Shown: positions 24,330-32,889, counted from the stretch's first letter. The stretch: 64,000 bases of DNA from Microbacterium laevaniformans (GCF_016907555.1 NZ_JAFBCE010000001.1:310001-374000), one strand, 5' to 3'. Made by a program: numbers and translations. Notes: generated from the sequence alone by a model not told the origin.

Positions 24330-25922
24330 GTGTCGACCGATATTCAGGTCGATGCGACGACGGAGTCGCCTCAAGACTCGACAGCATCCCGCGCGGACAG
24401 CGGCTCCATCACTGCTCCGGCCGGTGCGTCGACTCAGGCCACCAGCACCATGCGTCCCGCTGCCCCACCCTTCAACGATTGGCGTCGCCGCTTTCAGCGC
24501 CGGCTCGTCGTCAGCGATTTCCTCGTGCTGACGTGGGTCGTCTTCGGCGCCCAGATCGCCTGGTTCGGGTTCGGCAATGCGCAGCTGGCAATCCGGGATG
24601 ACGCTCGTATCTCGGACATCTCCTACTGGGCGTTCTCGGTGGTACTTATCGTCGTCTGGTTGGGAGCGCTGTCGTGGAGCGACTCGCGCAGCGTGCGCGT
24701 TCTCGGCTCGGGGTCGAATGAGTATCTGCGGGTGTTCGATGCCAGCCTGAGGGTGTTCGGTGCGGTCGCCATCGTCGGCTTCCTCACCAAAATCGATGTC
24801 GCTCGGGGATTCCTGCTGATCAGCCTGCCGGCGGGCGTGCTGGTGCTGCTCTGGACGCGGTGGCTGTGGCGGCAGTGGCTGATCATGAAGCGCAGGACCG
24901 GTGACTTCTCGGCGCGGGTGCTTCTCGTCGGGTCGGAGGAGTCGGTTGCCCAGATCGCGCGTGAGCTCATTCGCACTCCGAGCGCCGGTTATCACGTCGT
25001 CGGCGCGTGCACGCCGACGGGCAAAGTCGCTGACTTCGTGCCCGGCACTTCCGTGCCCATGATGGGGAGCGTCAACGCGGTTGAGCGTGCGATGGAACTG
25101 ACGGATGCCGACACCGTCGCCGTGACGAGCACCGACGAGCTGCCGCCCGACAAGGTGAAGCAGATCTCGTGGAACCTGCAGGCCGGCCGCCAGCACCTCG
25201 TGCTCGCGCCAAGCATCGTCGATATCGCGGGGCCGCGGCTGCACACTCGACCGGTCGCAGGTCTGCCCCTGATCCACGTCGAGACGCCACGCTTCAGCAA
25301 GGGTCAACTGTTCCTGAAACGATCGGTCGATGTGACCGCGAGCGCGCTCGGGGTGTTGCTGCTGAGCCCTGTGCTGGCCTTCCTCGCGATGAGCATCCGT
25401 CTCTCATCGGAGGGCCCCGTTCTTTTCAGTCAAGTCCGTATCGGTCGTGGTGGACGCGAGTTCACGATGTTCAAGTTCCGCTCGATGGTGACAAATGCCG
25501 AAGAGCTGCTCGCGCAGCTCACACGCGACCGTCAGGAGCAGGGCCTCGACTCGGGCAACGAGATCATGTTCAAGATGAAGAACGACCCGCGTGTGACGCC
25601 GATCGGCCGCATTATGCGCAAGTACAGCCTCGACGAGCTGCCGCAGCTGTTCAACGTGATCGGCGGATCGATGTCGCTCGTCGGACCGCGACCGCCGTTG
25701 CCGAGTGAGGTGGAGCAGTACGCCACGCATGTGCACCGCCGCTTCCTCGTCAAGCCCGGCATCACCGGACTCTGGCAGGTGAGCGGCCGCTCGACGCTCT
25801 CGTGGGAGGACACCGTGAGGCTTGACTTGTCGTATGTCGAGAATTGGTCGCTGGTTGGTGATATCGCGATTCTCGCGAAAACCGCAAAGGCCGCGATTGC
25901 TCCGGGAGAGACCGCAGCGTGA
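24330..25922 (+). CDS. Initiating polyprenyl-phosphate sugar-1-phosphate transferase (WbaP/CpsE-like)
   Basis: A 530-residue membrane enzyme that starts glycan assembly by moving a sugar-1-phosphate from a nucleotide sugar to the lipid carrier. Four or five N-terminal spans (about 55-190) are followed by a Rossmann-like region ([18 protein letters not shown]) and the bacterial sugar-transferase domain (about 325-525). Conserved blocks include [50 protein letters not shown] and [17 protein letters not shown] start with TAGGAGGAAG upstream. This is the first gene of the glycan locus. A truncated, mutated relative lies 340 bases downstream. Confidence 0.94.
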
Positions 25923-26113
25923 CAGAGCTCCTTTTTGTCGGTTCGGGTTTCTTCGGTCTCACGATCGTTGAGCGAGCGGCCGCTAGACGGCGGAAGGTGA
26001 TGGTGATTGCTCGTCGTCACTACATTGACGGGAAGGCGTGCAACGAGGATGAGGCACTGATGGATACTGAGGTGCACCGGCATGATCGTCGATCACCCCG
26101 CGTGAACGCGTGA
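25919..26113 (+). pseudogene. Remnant of UDP-galactopyranose mutase (glf) N-terminus
   Basis: A 64-codon frame overlapping the stop of the sugar transferase (GTGA). The translation [18 protein letters not shown], then [19 protein letters not shown] and EVHRHD, matches the FAD-binding N-terminus of UDP-galactopyranose mutase, whose family reads VGSGFFG and later RRxHIGGNAY. Gly-to-Lys and other changes are present, the frame ends after about 64 codons against 380-400 in the family, and no continuation was found in the next bases. It is therefore a dead fragment. It implies that an ancestor of this locus made UDP-galactofuranose. Confidence 0.75.
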
Positions 26114-26259
26114 TCCGAGTACCCTGCCATCGCCTCGATATGTCTATGCACATACCCCTGCACCAGCAGGCCAATCACAAGCCGGCAGTTCGTCTTCGTC
26201 GACATCCCTCGCCGCCAGCGACCAGCTCCCGGCGGCGGCGAGTGCCATCCTGGATCGAG

Positions 26260-27117
26260 CTCCCCATCATGGGCTTGGTGTCGGCGGTCGATCGCCCCAT
26301 CCGCGCCACGGGTGCTGACACGGTAGCTGTGACGAGTACTGACGAGCTGCCGCCCGACAAGGGCAAAGAGATCTCGGGGGGGCTTGAGGCTGGAAAGCAG
26401 CCCCGTGTTCTCGCGCCGGGCGTCGTCGACCTCGCCGGTCCGCGTATTCATGTCCGCCCGGTATCGGGCCTACCGCTAGTCCACGTCGAGACCCCGCGAT
26501 TCAGTAAGAGACAGCTGTTTGCCAAACGCACGCTCGGCCTCGCCGCCGCGGTGCTGGGCGTGATTCTCATCAGTCCGCTACTGCTGTTCGTCTCGATCGC
26601 CGTTCGGCTTGCGCGCCAAGGACCCGTCTTCCTCATTCAGATCCGTACGGGCCTGCGAGCGCAAGAGGTCACGATGATCAAGTTCCGCTCGATGGTCGTT
26701 AGCGCAGAAAGCCTGCTCGAACAACTCGCCAAGCAAGAATGCGATGCGGGCAACGAAGCTCTCTTCAAGACTAACAATGATCCCAGAATCACCGCCATCG
26801 GGCGCGTGATACAGAAGTACAGCCTCGATGAGTTGCTTAAGTTGTTCAGCGTGATCGCTCGGCCGATGTCGCTCGTCGGCCCCCGTCACCCTCTGCCAAG
26901 TGAGGTCGCGCAGTATGCCGACCGCGTGCACCGCCGCTCCCTCGCCGAGCCAGGAATCACGGGCTTCAGGCAGGCTAGTGGTCGCTCGTTGCTGCCGGGG
27001 GATGAATCCGTGCGCCTCGACTTGTCCTACGTTAAGAACTGGACATTCGTGGGCGACACTGTAATCCTTCTAGACGGCCCGCGTCCCCCGCCCCCCGCGC
27101 CCGGCGAGACAGCCGCC
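26260..27117 (+). pseudogene. Truncated, degenerate second copy of the initiating sugar transferase
   Basis: This stretch keeps frame and aligns with the C-terminal half of the 24330-25922 enzyme from its [12 protein letters not shown] block to its GETAA end; [16 protein letters not shown] is identical in both. The N-terminal membrane half is missing. Conserved positions are changed: DELPQL to DELLKL, GPRPPL to [15 protein letters not shown] to GFRQASGRS, and IGRGGRE to TGLRAQE. The frame then runs on past the homologous end into the next gene. The whole open frame spans 26110-27249. The best reading is a decaying duplicate or the scar of an earlier cluster exchange. A residual enzyme is unlikely. 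Confidence 0.8.
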
Positions 27118-27157
27118 CAGTCCCCTCCCCGATCTCGCTTCCCGACCAAGGAATCAC

Positions 27158-28744
27158 ATGAACTCGACGCCGCCCGCCGTCCTCGACTGCACGCTCCGAG
27201 ACGGCGGCTACTACACCGCGTGGGATTTCCAGCAGGACGTTGTCGGTAGTTACTTGCGCGCGGCCTCAAAGCTGCCGATCTCGACGATCGAACTCGGGTA
27301 CTGCAACCTCCCGCGTGATGGCTACTTCGGCCAGTACTACTTTCTCAACGAGGCCACGACGGCGCGCGCAAAGGGCATCTTGCGCGAGGATCAGCGCCTC
27401 GCCGTCATGCTGGATGAGAAGTCTGTCCCCTTGACGTCGCTCGACCGTGTCGTCGGGGAGGTTATCGGGACGGTCGACCTCGTTCGCATGGCGGTGGCAC
27501 CAACCCGCCTTGCTGAAGCAGCAGCTCTCGGCCGACGTCTTCGTGAACTGGGCTTCGACGTCGCCATCAACATCATGTACCTATCGAAGTACTGGGATTC
27601 GGTGGACTCCCTGTCCAGTCTCTCCGAGGCGGCTGAGGTGTCCTCATGTCTCGCTCTCGTCGACAGCTACGGCGGTTGCACTCCCGAACAGGTCGCCATC
27701 GCAATCTCTTCACTTCGAGAGCTGCATCCCCAGACAGCGGCGGGCTTCCATGGACACGACAACATGCGCCTCGCTTTCGCGAACTCGCTGAGCGCCGTCA
27801 CCGCGGGCGCGACGATCATTGATAGCACCGTCACGGGCATGGGACGTGGTCCAGGGAACACTCAGACAGAGACCCTCCTCGTCCACAAGTACGCTGCCAC
27901 CCCCGACGAGCTCGACTACGTGGCGCTTCACGACATCGTTGACCCGTTCGAGAAGCTGCAGCGCGAGTACGGCTGGGGCACTAACTTGGTCTACATGATC
28001 TCGGGTGCCGCCGGACTCCCTCAGAATCGGGTAATGGACTGGCTGGGCAAGAATCGCTATTCAGTACCCTCAATCATCCATGCGATGCAGAATCAGTCAC
28101 TCGGTAGCATCGACGAATTCTCTTACGAGACGCTCGGCGCACTTTCTGCGAACGAGACAGACGAGCTGATCGTTATCGGAGGCGGTCCGACAATAGAGGA
28201 GCACGCCGAGGCAGTCGTTGAGTACGCCAACCGAAGCGGCGCGACAGTTGTCCATGCCAACTACCGCCACCTGTCGCTCATCGAACGGCTGACCACCAGG
28301 CAGTACGTCGCGCTCGCGGGCGACGTAGTTGACCGACTCCCCGATCGTGCAACTCTCGACATCAGCGATGGCTACATCGTCCCGGCAGCGCCGCGAATTC
28401 GCCCAGTTCCGGAGTTTGCGCGCGCTCGTACTCGACAAGTGCAGCCGTTTGTCGTCAGCGCCGACACCGACAATCTCGGACCCGTGAGTGACATCGGGCC
28501 GCTCTCTCTGGCTCTCGGCGCTGCTCTGGCAAATGACGCAGCGCGTGTGACCCTTGTCGGGTTCGACGGCTACGCCCATGCGACAAGTGCTGAGCAAGAG
28601 CTTGCAAAGGAGTCGCAGTTACTCCTCGACGCATTCCGGAAGGATCATCCCGAGCGCGAGGTCACTAGTGGTACTCGCACTCGATTCGACGTACCTGTTG
28701 CCTCGATCTACAGTCGGCTCTCAGCGCTCGCATCCGATGAGTGA
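27158..28744 (+). CDS. DRE-TIM (HMGL-like) aldolase fused to a Rossmann-like C-terminal domain
   Basis: A 528-residue two-domain protein. Residues 1-290 form a DRE-TIM metallolyase: LDCTLRDGGYY at the N-terminus, metal-binding FHGHDNMRLA and the active-site loop GMGRGPGNTQTE, as in 4-hydroxy-2-oxovalerate aldolase and related pyruvate enzymes. From about 325 a second domain begins with ELIVIGGGPTIEEH, resembling the nucleotide-binding opening of MptE/DUF115-type proteins. The ATG lies inside the tail of the preceding pseudogene frame. The stop overlaps the HAD gene, which overlaps kdsB. Together they suggest formation, dephosphorylation and CMP activation of a 2-keto-3-deoxy sugar acid; this pathway is inferred. 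Confidence 0.78.
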   Translation: MNSTPPAVLDCTLRDGGYYTAWDFQQDVVGSYLRAASKLPISTIELGYCNLPRDGYFGQYYFLNEATTARAKGILREDQRLAVMLDEKSVPLTSLDRVVGEVIGTVDLVRMAVAPTRLAEAAALGRRLRELGFDVAINIMYLSKYWDSVDSLSSLSEAAEVSSCLALVDSYGGCTPEQVAIAISSLRELHPQTAAGFHGHDNMRLAFANSLSAVTAGATIIDSTVTGMGRGPGNTQTETLLVHKYAATPDELDYVALHDIVDPFEKLQREYGWGTNLVYMISGAAGLPQNRVMDWLGKNRYSVPSIIHAMQNQSLGSIDEFSYETLGALSANETDELIVIGGGPTIEEHAEAVVEYANRSGATVVHANYRHLSLIERLTTRQYVALAGDVVDRLPDRATLDISDGYIVPAAPRIRPVPEFARARTRQVQPFVVSADTDNLGPVSDIGPLSLALGAALANDAARVTLVGFDGYAHATSAEQELAKESQLLLDAFRKDHPEREVTSGTRTRFDVPVASIYSRLSALASDE

Positions 28745-29462
28745 GACTCAGCAGACAGCAATTGACGCCTACGACGTAGTGATATTTGACTGCGACGGCG
28801 TGCTCCTTGATACGAACAGCGAGAAGAACCGCGCTTTCGAGGCTGTCGCGAGGGAGTTCGGCTACGACGATGAGGCGAGCGCCCGATTCGCCGCGTGGCA
28901 ATCAACGAACTTCGGAATCTCTAGGTTCCGTGTATTCGAAGAGCTTCTGTCTGGCCGCTTCGGGGCGCCTAGGGATGGCGAGACCCAAGCGGTTCTCGCT
29001 GATCTCACGTCTGCATTCGCCGCACGAACGTCAATCATCTACGACACGGCCGATAGGACTAAAGGAGCAGCCGACCTACTAGCGGCACTTGCACAGAAGC
29101 GACGCTACGTCGCATCGGGCAGCGCCCAGGATGAACTGCGCTCCGCGTTTGCTCGGCGACATCTCGCAGGCGACTTCGTAGGCATTTTCGGCTCGCCGAC
29201 TCCGAAGAAGGAGATCGTTCAAGCGATCGTCGAGCGAGAGCGGACCGACCGACCCGACTCGAACGCGATCATGATCGGCGATGCAATGGCAGATGCAGAC
29301 GCAGCCGACGCGGCCGGGATCGACTTTGTTTACGTCGGGGCCTACTCCACCGTCCGGCCAGCCATGCTTGAGCGCGCGTCGGCAACGGGTTATCGCACCG
29401 TCGAAACTCTTGCCGAGCTCCTTCTGCCAACCCATCCTTCGCCCATGAAAGCATCGCAATGA
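28737..29462 (+). CDS. HAD-superfamily phosphatase (beta-phosphoglucomutase-like type)
   Basis: A 241-residue HAD hydrolase. Motif I is FDCDGVLLDTN with the nucleophile Asp, motif II YVASGSAQ, the conserved Lys lies in PTPKKEIV and motif IV in MIGDAMADADAA. A helical cap is inserted after motif I. It starts within the aldolase stop (8-base overlap) and its stop overlaps the kdsB ATG, so the three are translated as a set. By analogy with KdsC or NeuB-pathway phosphatases it would remove a phosphate from a ulosonate phosphate, but its sequence type is the phosphoglycolate/beta-PGM group and the substrate is inferred from position. Confidence 0.85.
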   Translation: MSETQQTAIDAYDVVIFDCDGVLLDTNSEKNRAFEAVAREFGYDDEASARFAAWQSTNFGISRFRVFEELLSGRFGAPRDGETQAVLADLTSAFAARTSIIYDTADRTKGAADLLAALAQKRRYVASGSAQDELRSAFARRHLAGDFVGIFGSPTPKKEIVQAIVERERTDRPDSNAIMIGDAMADADAADAAGIDFVYVGAYSTVRPAMLERASATGYRTVETLAELLLPTHPSPMKASQ

Positions 29463-30196
29463 ACTTCGACGACATCCTCATTGTCATCCCGGCACGATTC
29501 AGCTCAAAGCGTCTGCCTGGTAAGCCGCTGGTACCCATCGCTGGCGTTCCTATGATCATCCGGACGGCCAAGCAGTGCGCAGCCGTCGTCCCTCGCGACC
29601 GGATCGTTGTCGCCACCGATGATCAACGCATCGTGGATGTGTGCCTAGAACACGGATTCCGAGCAGAGCTTACGCGGGACAACCACCTGACCGGCACGGA
29701 CCGCGTTGCAGAGATCGCGGCACGCATTCCGGCGCGAACGTACGTCAATGTTCAGGGAGACGAACCCGTGTTTGAGCCTGATGACATTCGAGCGATCATC
29801 GATGCCTCTAATGCGAACCCGACTGCCACGTTCATCGGTTCTTGCGCGCTCACTGAGGCGCAATGGCGAGACTCGAAGTACATCAAGTTACTAGTGGGGC
29901 TTGACCAGCAGCTCATCTACATCGGTCGTGCGATGGTTCCCGGGTCACACGACGGAGGCTTTCACGGGGGTTCGCGACAAGTCTGCGCGTACGCGTACAC
30001 ATCCGAAGTCCTGGCGAAGTACGCATCGGTAGCAGCCCGCACTCCTCTCGAAGCGATCGAGGACTGCGAGGTCGTACGGTTTCTCGAGCTGAGCATCCCG
30101 GTCACGGTCATCCCGATGAGCGATCGCTCCATGTCAGTAGACAGACCGGAGGATGTGCTTCGCGTCGAAGCGACCATCGAGGCGTCAACACACTGA
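29459..30196 (+). CDS. kdsB: 3-deoxy-manno-octulosonate cytidylyltransferase-like enzyme (KdsB)
   Basis: A 245-residue CMP-sugar synthetase. IPARFSSKRLPGKPL is the CTP-binding loop of KdsB, TGTDRVAE and YVNVQGDEP are the family metal and substrate blocks, and SVDRPEDVLRVEATI closes the domain. The enzyme couples a 3-deoxy-ulosonic acid to CMP. Kdo is the normal substrate in Gram-negative bacteria; in an actinobacterium without lipopolysaccharide a wall or capsule ulosonic acid is expected. Some actinobacterial walls are known to contain teichulosonic acids. The exact sugar is not readable from sequence. Confidence 0.9.
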   Translation: MNFDDILIVIPARFSSKRLPGKPLVPIAGVPMIIRTAKQCAAVVPRDRIVVATDDQRIVDVCLEHGFRAELTRDNHLTGTDRVAEIAARIPARTYVNVQGDEPVFEPDDIRAIIDASNANPTATFIGSCALTEAQWRDSKYIKLLVGLDQQLIYIGRAMVPGSHDGGFHGGSRQVCAYAYTSEVLAKYASVAARTPLEAIEDCEVVRFLELSIPVTVIPMSDRSMSVDRPEDVLRVEATIEASTH

Positions 30197-30204
30197 CCGG
30201 CCGA

Positions 30205-30243
30205 CTGCTGAGTGTCGATGATTCGGTCATCGACACTCAGCAG
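30205..30243. terminator. 17-bp hairpin between convergent kdsB and DUF115-like genes
   Basis: Arms 30205-30221 and 30227-30243 are perfectly complementary (CTGCTGAGTGTCGATGA and its complement) with a TTCGG loop. It lies nine bases after the kdsB stop and ends 30 bases before the convergent gene's stop. The stable UUCGG-type loop and the position support a terminator for both strands, although no long T run follows. Confidence 0.85.
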
Positions 30244-30272
30244 GTCGAAGGTTGACGGTGCGCGCATAGGTG

Positions 30273-31127
30273 TCAGCGCCCAAGTTCGATTGCGAGTTCC
30301 GACTTTCGGAATATGTCGCACTTGCCGTCGATCGTGCAGTCGACGACGTCGCGACCGGCTCGGTCCCACGCGGCTCGCGCCAGCGCATACGAGTACTCGT
30401 TGCCGCGAAGAACTGGATTCCGCAGAGAAAGGCCCTGCGGAAAGTAGCGCGGATCGAAATGATTCGTGTCGACTTGACCCGTCGTCTCGTAGGCAGATGG
30501 CGCGCCGGCGCTTGAGTGATTGTGATCCATGCCAATGATGACTGCCTTCTGCCAGCCGAGGAGGTAGGCGCCCTGGAGAGCCCAAAACATAGCAGTATAG
30601 CCGTGGTGCGAGGAAAGCCCGAGATGCTTGGCGAACCGCCAGCGCAGCTGATAGCGCAAGAAGGCGACATTCTCCCGTCGGTCAAATAAGTCAGCGGCGT
30701 CGCGCGAGACCATGAGCGGCACCGGAAGGGCGGCGAGTTCAGCACCGAAATGCTTGAGGACATCAGGGTCATGAGCACAGATCAAGGACGGTGCGCGTTC
30801 GTACGAGTCCATCAGTACATATCCCCGATTCATAAGAATATACGGGTGCCGGTCGAGTACACTCAGATCAGTGCGACGGAGGCTAGGGCCACTCGCGACG
30901 ATCAGGCCCGTCTGGCCATTCTCGCTGCCGCGCAGTCGATCTAGTGTCACTAGACTGCTCCTTCCGATGGCACTGCGCGAGTAGCGCATATCACCTACTC
31001 TGCGCCGAAGATCACGCGCGAAGGACACCAAGAAACCGCTCTGTGTATGGGTCTCATCAAGGTCAACTGGAAGGCGGGATACGAGCGTTCCAGGAGCAGA
31101 AAACTTCGTAATCGCGTCAATGACCAT
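30273..31127 (-). CDS. DUF115/MptE-like protein, possible CMP-sugar glycosyltransferase
   Basis: A 284-residue protein without membrane spans. The central GLIVASGPSLRRTDLSVL is the glycine-loop motif of DUF115 (MptE-like) proteins and resembles the GNGPSL loop of GT42 sialyltransferases. YILMNRGYVL, ICAHDPDVL and HFDPRYFPQG follow in the order typical of DUF115 proteins in surface-glycan loci. Because the convergent kdsB makes a CMP-sugar, a role in transferring that sugar is plausible but unproven. The ATG has AGGAGA upstream. It follows the flippase gene by 22 bases on the same strand and is probably in its operon. Confidence 0.65.
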   Translation of the reverse strand: MVIDAITKFSAPGTLVSRLPVDLDETHTQSGFLVSFARDLRRRVGDMRYSRSAIGRSSLVTLDRLRGSENGQTGLIVASGPSLRRTDLSVLDRHPYILMNRGYVLMDSYERAPSLICAHDPDVLKHFGAELAALPVPLMVSRDAADLFDRRENVAFLRYQLRWRFAKHLGLSSHHGYTAMFWALQGAYLLGWQKAVIIGMDHNHSSAGAPSAYETTGQVDTNHFDPRYFPQGLSLRNPVLRGNEYSYALARAAWDRAGRDVVDCTIDGKCDIFRKSELAIELGR

Positions 31128-31149: not shown

Positions 31150-32559
31150 TCAAGATCGTGTTCTAGCGCGGGCCCGAAGTTGAATGACCATACTGCTCAC
31201 AGCGCTCGCAACAGCAACAACGTACAGCGCGATGACAGTGGAGGAACTCATGGAGGGCTGATTGGCGAGCGCGCCGGTGGCCACGCAAGCGGTAGACAGG
31301 ACAATGAGCGCTGGGGTCAGGCCAGCACGCTTCCAGTCGACCTCGGCCCTAACTAGACGAACGATGAAGAATGCAGCGCCCGCCATCGCAATCCAGCTAA
31401 TGGTGACCGATATCGGGCCTCCTGATAGTCCCAGAACAGGCACAAGCGAGAATGATCCAACAATGACGACGATTAAGCCCAAAGTTGAAGCGATCCAGTT
31501 CCACCTAGTATTTCCCATCGTTTGCGTTGGGAAATTCAGCGCCATCCCGTAAGCAGTCCAGAGCAAGGGCACGGCCGCCATTAGCCCTATTGCAGACGCC
31601 ACGGTGTCATAGCCTGACCCTAATATCCAGTCAACGAATGGTCTGCCCATGAGGATCATCAACAACGTCGTAGCTGTTCCGATTATCCATTGCAGACGCA
31701 TGACTCGGGCTAAGTGGAAAGTGGGGCCTGGCAACGCGGTTCGGGCGTACTCCGGCGTGACTGCGCGGTTGATCTCGGCGACGATGAGCACGCCGACGTT
31801 GACGACGTTTTGTGCGATCGACAGATAACCCACGTCACTGAGTGGAAGGAGGACCGCGAGAATCGGTCGATTGACGAAAGAGATCCCCCAGAACGCGAGC
31901 GAATGGGGAAGTAGCGGCAGACTGAATGAGACGAGCGATCGCAGATCGTCCCGCCGCGCTCGCCGAACTCGCATCGTGCGCGGCGCAATTATGAACGCAA
32001 GGAGAAGCGAAGCGGCTCCGGCGACGAGGTCGGAGAGTACCCACCCCCACACTCCCCAGGGAAGTGCCAGAACGAAGGCAATCTTTGAGGCAAGTGAAAC
32101 CACAATGCTAGTCAGCGTAAACAGAACGAGCGGACTGAAGCGATGCTCCGCCCGAAGGCGCGACTGCACGTACGATGATCCGTACAGCCCGAGGCCAGCG
32201 GCGATGATCTCGATTCCCCAAAGGGCTGACGGCACTTGGAGGATGTCCGCCGGCAGGGCTAAGAGTGCACCTCCGACAAGAAGACAAGCACTTGGGCCAA
32301 TCACGAGGAGCCAAAGCCTGCTCGCGGCAAGCATCCCAATCTGACCGGGCTCATGCTGAAGACGGGATGCGGCGCGGAACACCGCCGCTTCCACAGGACT
32401 CCCCATTCCTGCGCCGAGCACCGTGCCAGCCACAGTGATGAGGCTCGCCGCGCCGTAGTCATCGGGACTCATCGCTCTCGTGACGAAGGGAAGGAGGAGT
32501 AAGCCAACGCTCCTCTGCACGAGTGCGAGGACCGTGAACACGGTCATGGCGCGCTTCAC
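31150..32559 (-). CDS. Wzx-like flippase / polysaccharide exporter (MOP superfamily)
   Basis: A 469-residue membrane protein with about 12-14 hydrophobic spans. The N-terminus RSVGLLLLPFVTRAMSPDDYG is the standard opening of polysaccharide biosynthesis MOP transporters that move lipid-linked repeat units to the outer face. The GTG at 32559 is chosen because GGAG lies seven bases upstream and it sits directly before the first span; an in-frame GTG at 32655 would add 32 residues unlike the family. The DUF115-like gene follows it. The A/T content is visibly higher than in the flanking housekeeping genes. Confidence 0.9.
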   Translation of the reverse strand: MKRAMTVFTVLALVQRSVGLLLLPFVTRAMSPDDYGAASLITVAGTVLGAGMGSPVEAAVFRAASRLQHEPGQIGMLAASRLWLLVIGPSACLLVGGALLALPADILQVPSALWGIEIIAAGLGLYGSSYVQSRLRAEHRFSPLVLFTLTSIVVSLASKIAFVLALPWGVWGWVLSDLVAGAASLLLAFIIAPRTMRVRRARRDDLRSLVSFSLPLLPHSLAFWGISFVNRPILAVLLPLSDVGYLSIAQNVVNVGVLIVAEINRAVTPEYARTALPGPTFHLARVMRLQWIIGTATTLLMILMGRPFVDWILGSGYDTVASAIGLMAAVPLLWTAYGMALNFPTQTMGNTRWNWIASTLGLIVVIVGSFSLVPVLGLSGGPISVTISWIAMAGAAFFIVRLVRAEVDWKRAGLTPALIVLSTACVATGALANQPSMSSSTVIALYVVAVASAVSSMVIQLRARARTRS

Positions 32560-32889
32560 GAGACGACTCCATTCTCTGCCACGCGTACGTGGACCGCTGT
32601 CGGTCAGCTTCGTCCGATGTCTACTCGGGCCAGCGGCGGACAGAAATAGAGTCACTCCACCCCGGATTCCTCAATCCTACCGGCTTTGGCGCCCGCCCAC
32701 GACCAAGGGCATTCCTGCGGCCCACGCGTCATCTACCGCTTCGAGACAACCAGTCTGGGTCGCTTGAAAGTGCGGCGGAAGGACCCGCAGTCACCCAGCC
32801 GCTGCGGCGCCTAAGATGGTAGTGCAAGGCGAGCAGATCCACGGAAATAGCGGTCTGGTGATCTCGACCCGAAGGGACTATTTCTCGCA
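32560..32889. other. 330-base divergent intergenic region in the glycan locus
   Basis: This stretch separates the divergent flippase and GT4 genes. No credible gene, RNA or repeat was found in it; short frames present have no ribosome site or homology. It must hold the promoters of both transcription units, but no convincing -10/-35 pair could be assigned. Confidence 0.6.

Follow-up and report, generated by a model that had tools for sequence, protein, structure and literature searches.

In the Kdo pathway, a phosphoenolpyruvate (PEP)-dependent synthase (KdsA), a phosphatase (KdsC), and a CMP-sugar synthetase (KdsB) act in turn, while the nonulosonate pathways rely on NeuB, LegI, or PseI together with NeuA or PseF and also end in a CMP-ulosonate. 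Genome surveys usually detect sialic-acid-like and Kdo-like sugars through NeuB or KdsA. The DmpG-type aldolases (DmpG/BphI), members of the DRE-TIM superfamily, use pyruvate, and the condensation of pyruvate with an aldose phosphate to a 3-deoxy-2-ulosonate phosphate is known chemistry for the pyruvate aldolase class. Downstream, CMP-activated nonulosonic acids are transferred by Maf enzymes, which accept both CMP-Neu5Ac and CMP-Kdo (PMC11339370), and for the E. coli K15 capsule, a Maf/CstII-like ORF has been predicted to act as the Kdo transferase (PMC7387560).

The window, a 64,000-nucleotide stretch of the Microbacterium laevaniformans genome, carries three genes that follow the same logic of synthase, phosphatase, and CMP-synthetase, with a KdsB-family final step (Table 1). 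Like the nonulosonate pathways, this cassette is predicted to yield a CMP-ulosonate. It differs from the Kdo pathway in that a DRE-TIM aldolase appears to replace the PEP synthase and a HAD-IA enzyme is found instead of KdsC. The trio spans 27158 to 30196, and the overlap of start and stop codons that the original prediction described is present at both junctions: 8 nt between the aldolase and HAD genes, with the HAD ATG inside the end of the aldolase gene, and 4 nt (ATGA) between the HAD and cytidylyltransferase genes. The convergent DUF115-like neighbor was likewise confirmed as an ORF on the opposite strand.

Table 1. Coordinates and predicted roles of the cassette genes and selected neighbors within the window
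Feature	Position	Strand	Evidence
Two-domain aldolase, whole gene, 528 aa	27158-28744	+	ORF; overlap with HAD gene
N-terminal DRE-TIM (HMGL-like) aldolase domain, residues ~1-311	27158-28090	+	PF00682; 3dxi_A; motif alignment
Predicted C-terminal Maf/MptE/GT42-like domain, residues 318-528 (GGGPT...GFDGY)	28109-28741	+	AF2 fold; weak PF01973 in homologues
HAD-IA phosphatase, candidate ulosonate-phosphate phosphatase	28737-29462	+	PF00702, TIGR01549; HAD homologue beside aldolase in most related loci
Predicted KdsB-type CMP-ulosonate synthetase (cytidylyltransferase)	29459-30196	+	PF02348, NF003952, KpsU 1gq9
Divergent MptE-like protein, candidate CMP-ulosonate-dependent glycosyltransferase	30273-31127	-	PF01973 weak; family profile leading to CstII
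Wzx-like flippase, same glycan locus	31150-32655	-	PF01943 E 7.6e-11
Priming polyprenyl-phosphate sugar phosphotransferase, glycan locus	24330-25922	+	TIGR03025 420 bits, PF02397

Around the cassette lie a flippase, glycosyltransferases of several families, a Core-2/I-branching-type enzyme, a hexapeptide-repeat transferase, and a priming sugar phosphotransferase, as well as genes for a GDP-mannose dehydratase, an epimerase, and a member of the UDP-glucose dehydrogenase family. Because these glycan genes surround the trio, we assign the cassette to a surface glycan locus.

The host genome is a single contig of 3.03 Mb (99.99% complete), and profile searches covered all of it. Neither KdsA/DAHP_synth_1 (PF00793) nor NeuB (PF03102) had a single match, and nothing exceeded the cutoff for KpsF/KdsD; the same searches were positive in control genomes. 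The original prediction had noted that KdsA and NeuB were missing from the locus, a statement that now extends to the entire genome and is joined by the lack of an above-cutoff KdsD. These results set the window genome apart from carriers of the Kdo and nonulosonate pathways, and a canonical Kdo or NeuB pathway elsewhere in the genome was rejected on the absence of PF00793 and PF03102 matches. With both synthases absent, no enzyme of the cassette other than the aldolase is a visible candidate for forming the carbon skeleton. One further, weaker cytidylyltransferase-like stretch occurs elsewhere in the genome.

The N-terminal domain of the aldolase belongs to the DRE-TIM/HMGL-like metallolyases, as it scored above the PF00682 cutoff (69.8 versus 29 bits, E 3e-19) and retains the RD and HxH metal motifs. 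In the motif alignment, R14, D15, H198, and H200 are invariant and match the Arg-Asp pair and two His residues of DmpG. The nearest PDB entry is 3dxi (3dxi_A, E 7e-74; structural Z 30.6), followed by DmpG-type 4-hydroxy-2-oxovalerate aldolases (Z 25 to 28). Entry 3dxi, titled merely "putative aldolase," is the N-terminal domain of BVU_2661 from Bacteroides vulgatus, which scored 405 bits against the profile of this aldolase family and belongs to it. The window protein fell below the cutoff of every DRE-TIM equivalog, including that for 4-hydroxy-2-oxovalerate aldolase (TIGR03217, 79 versus 286 bits). At aligned position 21, all 15 aligned members and 3dxi have Tyr in place of the DmpG His that follows the RDG motif; thus, the reaction of these aldolases may differ from that of DmpG. 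While the TIM barrel and metal motifs are common to DmpG/BphI and the window aldolase, the latter lacks a partner aldehyde dehydrogenase, is fused to a Maf-like domain, and occurs in a glycan context. A role as a catabolic HOA aldolase was rejected on this context, the failed cutoffs, and the missing dehydrogenase.

The other two enzymes of the trio are assigned at the family level. The HAD protein matched PF00702 (E 1.4e-16) and passed the TIGR01549 cutoff; phmmer searches with it against the PDB returned nothing at E 0.001. The cytidylyltransferase was retrieved by PF02348 (104.8 versus 22.6 bits, E 7.5e-30) and matched KpsU (1gq9) at E 1e-34. Its description as a KdsB-type synthetase stands at the level of the Kdo-cytidylyltransferase subfamily (NF003952, 199.1 versus 193 bits) and not in the strict sense of KdsB: both KdsB equivalogs were failed (TIGR00466, 123.5 versus 155.2 bits; NF003948, 133.7 versus 281 bits), and the His of the [KR]HVGIYAY motif of KpsU/KdsB is Gln in the window enzyme and in most cassette KdsB enzymes. 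The window enzyme and most of these cassette enzymes also have an ED.E..R motif in common, where KpsU reads ESLEQLR. Given the failed equivalog cutoffs and the His-to-Gln change, the product is probably not Kdo. The lack of an above-cutoff KdsD in the genome also makes Kdo unlikely, so that another 3-deoxy-ulosonate would be expected. Teichulosonic acids are constituents of actinobacterial walls and are mentioned for Streptomyces (PMC13011467); a link between them and the cassette is speculation.

In the window protein, Pfam assigns no family above the cutoff to the second, Rossmann-like or MptE-like domain that had been proposed for the aldolase; 9 of 15 homologues match PF01973 (MptE-like) weakly. 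Structural searches with a model of the whole aldolase were swamped by the TIM barrel, and the domain was then folded alone. The resulting, confident AlphaFold2 model (pLDDT 87, pTM 0.87) was best matched by VIA-align to the Maf flagellin glycosyltransferase 5mu5 (Z 14.3, 192 residues, rmsd 3.7). Lower matches were SteA (11.0), archaeal MptE 8sd5 (10.5), CstII 1ro7 (10.4), a CMP-sialyltransferase bound to a CMP-sialic acid analogue, and thiamine pyrophosphokinases (at most 9.4). With the Maf Z score well above those of unrelated entries, the model places the domain in the MptE-like/Maf/GT42 fold. Sequence identity to Maf, MptE, and CstII is about 12%, and the domain differs from these proteins in being fused to an aldolase. 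A profile comparison of the domain with the MptE-like family gave a probability of only 61%.

The separate MptE-like protein scored below the PF01973 gathering score (17.4 versus 34.6 bits, E 0.004) and is therefore a weak match, but it groups with proteins of three other loci (L030, L053, and L075), two of which (L053 and L075) pass that score. The window protein alone had no phmmer match in the PDB, while a joint profile of the four family members found CstII (E 2.6e-5), with MptE and Maf weaker. The gene lies immediately upstream of the aldolase in L030 and L075; in L053, an actinobacterial locus with no aldolase, a GT2 enzyme is fused to it and a cytidylyltransferase comes next. Based on the Maf/CstII fold of the C-terminal domain and the CstII-finding profile, both the fused domain and the separate protein are predicted to have a fold type that handles CMP-ulosonates. 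The original suggestion that both handle the CMP-sugar thus gains from the fact that each leads to Maf/CstII, one by fold and the other by profile. It is less general for the separate protein, which only 3 of the 26 loci encoding a two-domain aldolase contain.

These 26 loci come from five phyla. Short peptides of the aldolase alone, scanned against about 85,000 species genomes, retrieved 15 relatives, of which 14 align over almost the full length; identity to the window protein is 33 to 46% over the full length for 13 of the 15 loci. A plasmid search yielded further members, as did profile searches covering Alphaproteobacteria, Bacteroidota, Bacillota, a Treponema genome, and Actinomycetota. 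The second domain is present in every member of at least 510 aa, in three cases (L079, L080, and L105) by weak profile match only. A CMP-sugar synthetase, KdsB- or NeuA-type, lies within 3 kb of the aldolase in 24/26 two-domain loci versus 1/37 one-domain loci (Fisher p about 5e-14, for loci that are not independent). The sole one-domain locus with a nearby synthetase is from Treponema (L034). In linked loci, the synthetase is mostly a gene of the same run as the aldolase, and the linkage holds in Actinomycetota, several lineages of Pseudomonadota, Bacteroidota, Bacillota, and Spirochaetota. Of the four members added last, once this rule was apparent, three obey it. A search of other genomes for the fused aldolase next to a CMP-synthetase had been proposed at the outset, and the association proved strongly kept in other phyla. 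Chance neighborhood was rejected on the 24/26 versus 1/37 linkage and on the same gene set in distant genomes.

Within the cassette, the synthetase slot is interchangeable between KdsB- and NeuA-type enzymes, with NeuA-like synthetases in Roseomonas, Sphingomonas, and Bacillus loci. The aldolase is retained throughout, as is the HAD protein in most cases. A HAD phosphatase is usually present in the synthetase-linked loci; a narrow profile did not find one in L032, L105, and L128 to L130. The order aldolase-HAD-synthetase is common to the window, most Acetobacteraceae, Sphingomonas, and a Bacillus MAG. Leisingera plasmids, Fodinicurvata, and a Bacteroidota genome have aldolase-KdsB-HAD. Two loci have a separate canonical pair within 10 kb of the cassette, kdsA-kdsB in L033 and NeuB-NeuA in L035, so the cassette does not represent a rearrangement of an ordinary pathway. 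The two-domain aldolases of L021 and L131 have no CMP-synthetase nearby; that of L131 is accompanied by a HAD protein and adjoins an HpcH/HpaI aldolase and a TPP enzyme.

Taken together, we consider it fairly probable that the trio is a PEP-synthase-independent CMP-ulosonate pathway that feeds an acquired surface glycan and whose product is handled by Maf/GT42-type domains. The gene order, cross-phylum recurrence, absence of a PEP synthase, folds, and metal-site motifs behind this reading were computed directly. In the proposed scheme, the metal-dependent DRE-TIM domain would form a 3-deoxy-2-ulosonate phosphate from an aldose phosphate and pyruvate (PEP being the less likely donor). The HAD enzyme would strip the phosphate, and the KdsB-type enzyme, judging from its family, would form the CMP-activated 3-deoxy-2-ulosonic acid. 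This product may be bound by both the fused Maf/GT42-like domain and the separate MptE-like protein. The latter is the likely transferase; the former would either act as another transferase or provide feedback on the committed step by sensing the product. A glycan exported by the flippase would then incorporate the sugar. Replacement of KdsA/NeuB by a DRE-TIM aldolase, as originally proposed, is thus supported by the genome-wide absence of these synthases, the cross-phylum linkage, and the folds, with the chemistry deduced. Two observations named together in advance as counterevidence, a complete KdsA/KdsC pathway elsewhere and loss of the linkage in relatives, were looked for, and neither was found.

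The aldolase could instead form or cleave another 2-oxo acid, for instance acting as a lyase or a Claisen-type synthase, with the ulosonate skeleton supplied by an unrecognized enzyme (e.g., a DapA/NanA-class lyase) and activated by the neighboring gene products. The Tyr in place of the DmpG catalytic His, the failure to reach any DRE-TIM equivalog cutoff, and the L131 locus that lacks a CMP-synthetase all fit such a role. We nonetheless regard it as unlikely, as the synthetase tracks the two-domain aldolase in nearly all loci, no other carbon-carbon bond-forming enzyme recurs in the cassette, and the best family-level match is to pyruvate aldolases rather than acyl-CoA synthases. Less likely still is that the product is another CMP-activated acid and not a sugar ulosonate. 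PF02348 is a broad family, and the window enzyme departs from KdsB at motif residues; however, glycosyltransferases, flippases, and polymerases mark the loci as glycan loci, and the handling domains have the fold of CMP-ulosonate transferases. KdsB-type enzymes are usually part of ordinary Kdo or nonulosonate pathways, which raises the possibility that KdsA or NeuB is encoded elsewhere and the aldolase is a chance neighbor. The complete genome without a match to either synthase and an aldolase-synthetase linkage conserved across phyla render this explanation highly improbable.

The remaining alternative concerns only the fused domain and is compatible with the rest of the model. The C-terminal domain may be a purely allosteric sensor that slows the aldolase on binding CMP-ulosonate or CMP, with no transfer. 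LeuA-type DRE-TIM enzymes have regulatory domains, and here the domain is fused to the committed step, many loci encode other candidate transferases, and a fold match alone is no proof of activity. Weighed against the best fold match being a glycosyltransferase domain, this role is quite possible, if slightly less than an even bet.

By predicted function, the cassette of aldolase, HAD phosphatase, and CMP-synthetase is a variant of CMP-ulosonate biosynthesis. More tentatively, it may constitute a third, evolutionarily separate route, in which a pyruvate-using DRE-TIM aldolase, spread horizontally over at least five phyla, brings its own CMP-ulosonate glycosyltransferase domain and so combines synthesis and transfer in one polypeptide. 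No account of the cassette was found in the open-access literature searched. If the assignment is correct, surveys based on NeuB or KdsA overlook a class of producers that includes Gram-positive bacteria. The family would also represent a new aldolase class for making ulosonic acids, as well as a natural fusion of a bond-forming enzyme with a sugar-transferase-like domain, and PDB entry 3dxi would gain a role.

Third-position GC is 0.65 to 0.77 for genes at about 26 to 40 kb of the window versus about 0.8 to 0.94 for most flanking genes, and the aldolase occurs in no other genome among 400 of the host's family. Thus, the glycan locus looks acquired, and its distribution looks sporadic. In the aldolase tree, the window protein groups with those of Acetobacteraceae and Sphingomonas (support 88/87), apart from other Actinomycetota members. 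Phage collections contained no full-length member of the aldolase family; the search of the plasmid collection recovered the cassette on Leisingera plasmids.

The glycan genes between about 26000 and 40300 have a third-position GC of 0.65 to 0.77, compared with about 0.8 to 0.94 in most of the flanking genes, a difference that fits a horizontally acquired island. Two incomplete features separate the priming phosphotransferase, which is intact, from the two-domain aldolase. The shorter reads like the beginning of a UDP-galactopyranose mutase, as recognized by eye from its predicted protein, and together the two are probably leftovers of recombination at the edge of the glycan locus.

Features separating the intact priming phosphotransferase from the aldolase
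Feature	Position	Remark
Short ORF, UDP-galactopyranose mutase start-like	25919-26107	By eye only (21 protein letters, not shown)
Sugar-transferase domain, second copy, shortened	26110-27161	61% identical

Among the comparison loci from other genomes and plasmids, one from an actinobacterium of a different family (L053:7443-10250) encodes an MptE-like domain fused to a GT2 enzyme, followed by a second GT2, a cytidylyltransferase, and a 2-hydroxyacid dehydrogenase. The aldolase is absent from this run, which is possibly a further CMP-ulosonate or CMP-acid locus. At L131:2278-7321, a two-domain aldolase has a HAD phosphatase on one side and, on the other, an HpcH/HpaI aldolase with a TPP enzyme after it. 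No cytidylyltransferase lies near this aldolase, and the same enzyme possibly serves another pathway there. In a Bacillota genome (L105:334-3682), a PfkB sugar kinase gene lies downstream of the KdsB-type and aldolase genes; this kinase could supply the aldose phosphate and thus offer a clue to the substrate.

Multiple aldolase and cytidylyltransferase copies occur within the single genome of a Treponema MAG (loci L079 and L080), with up to three consecutive cytidylyltransferase genes. The cassette is also carried by non-mobilizable Leisingera plasmids (L036 and L037), within polysaccharide loci that additionally encode glf, gmd, and GDP-fucose synthase.
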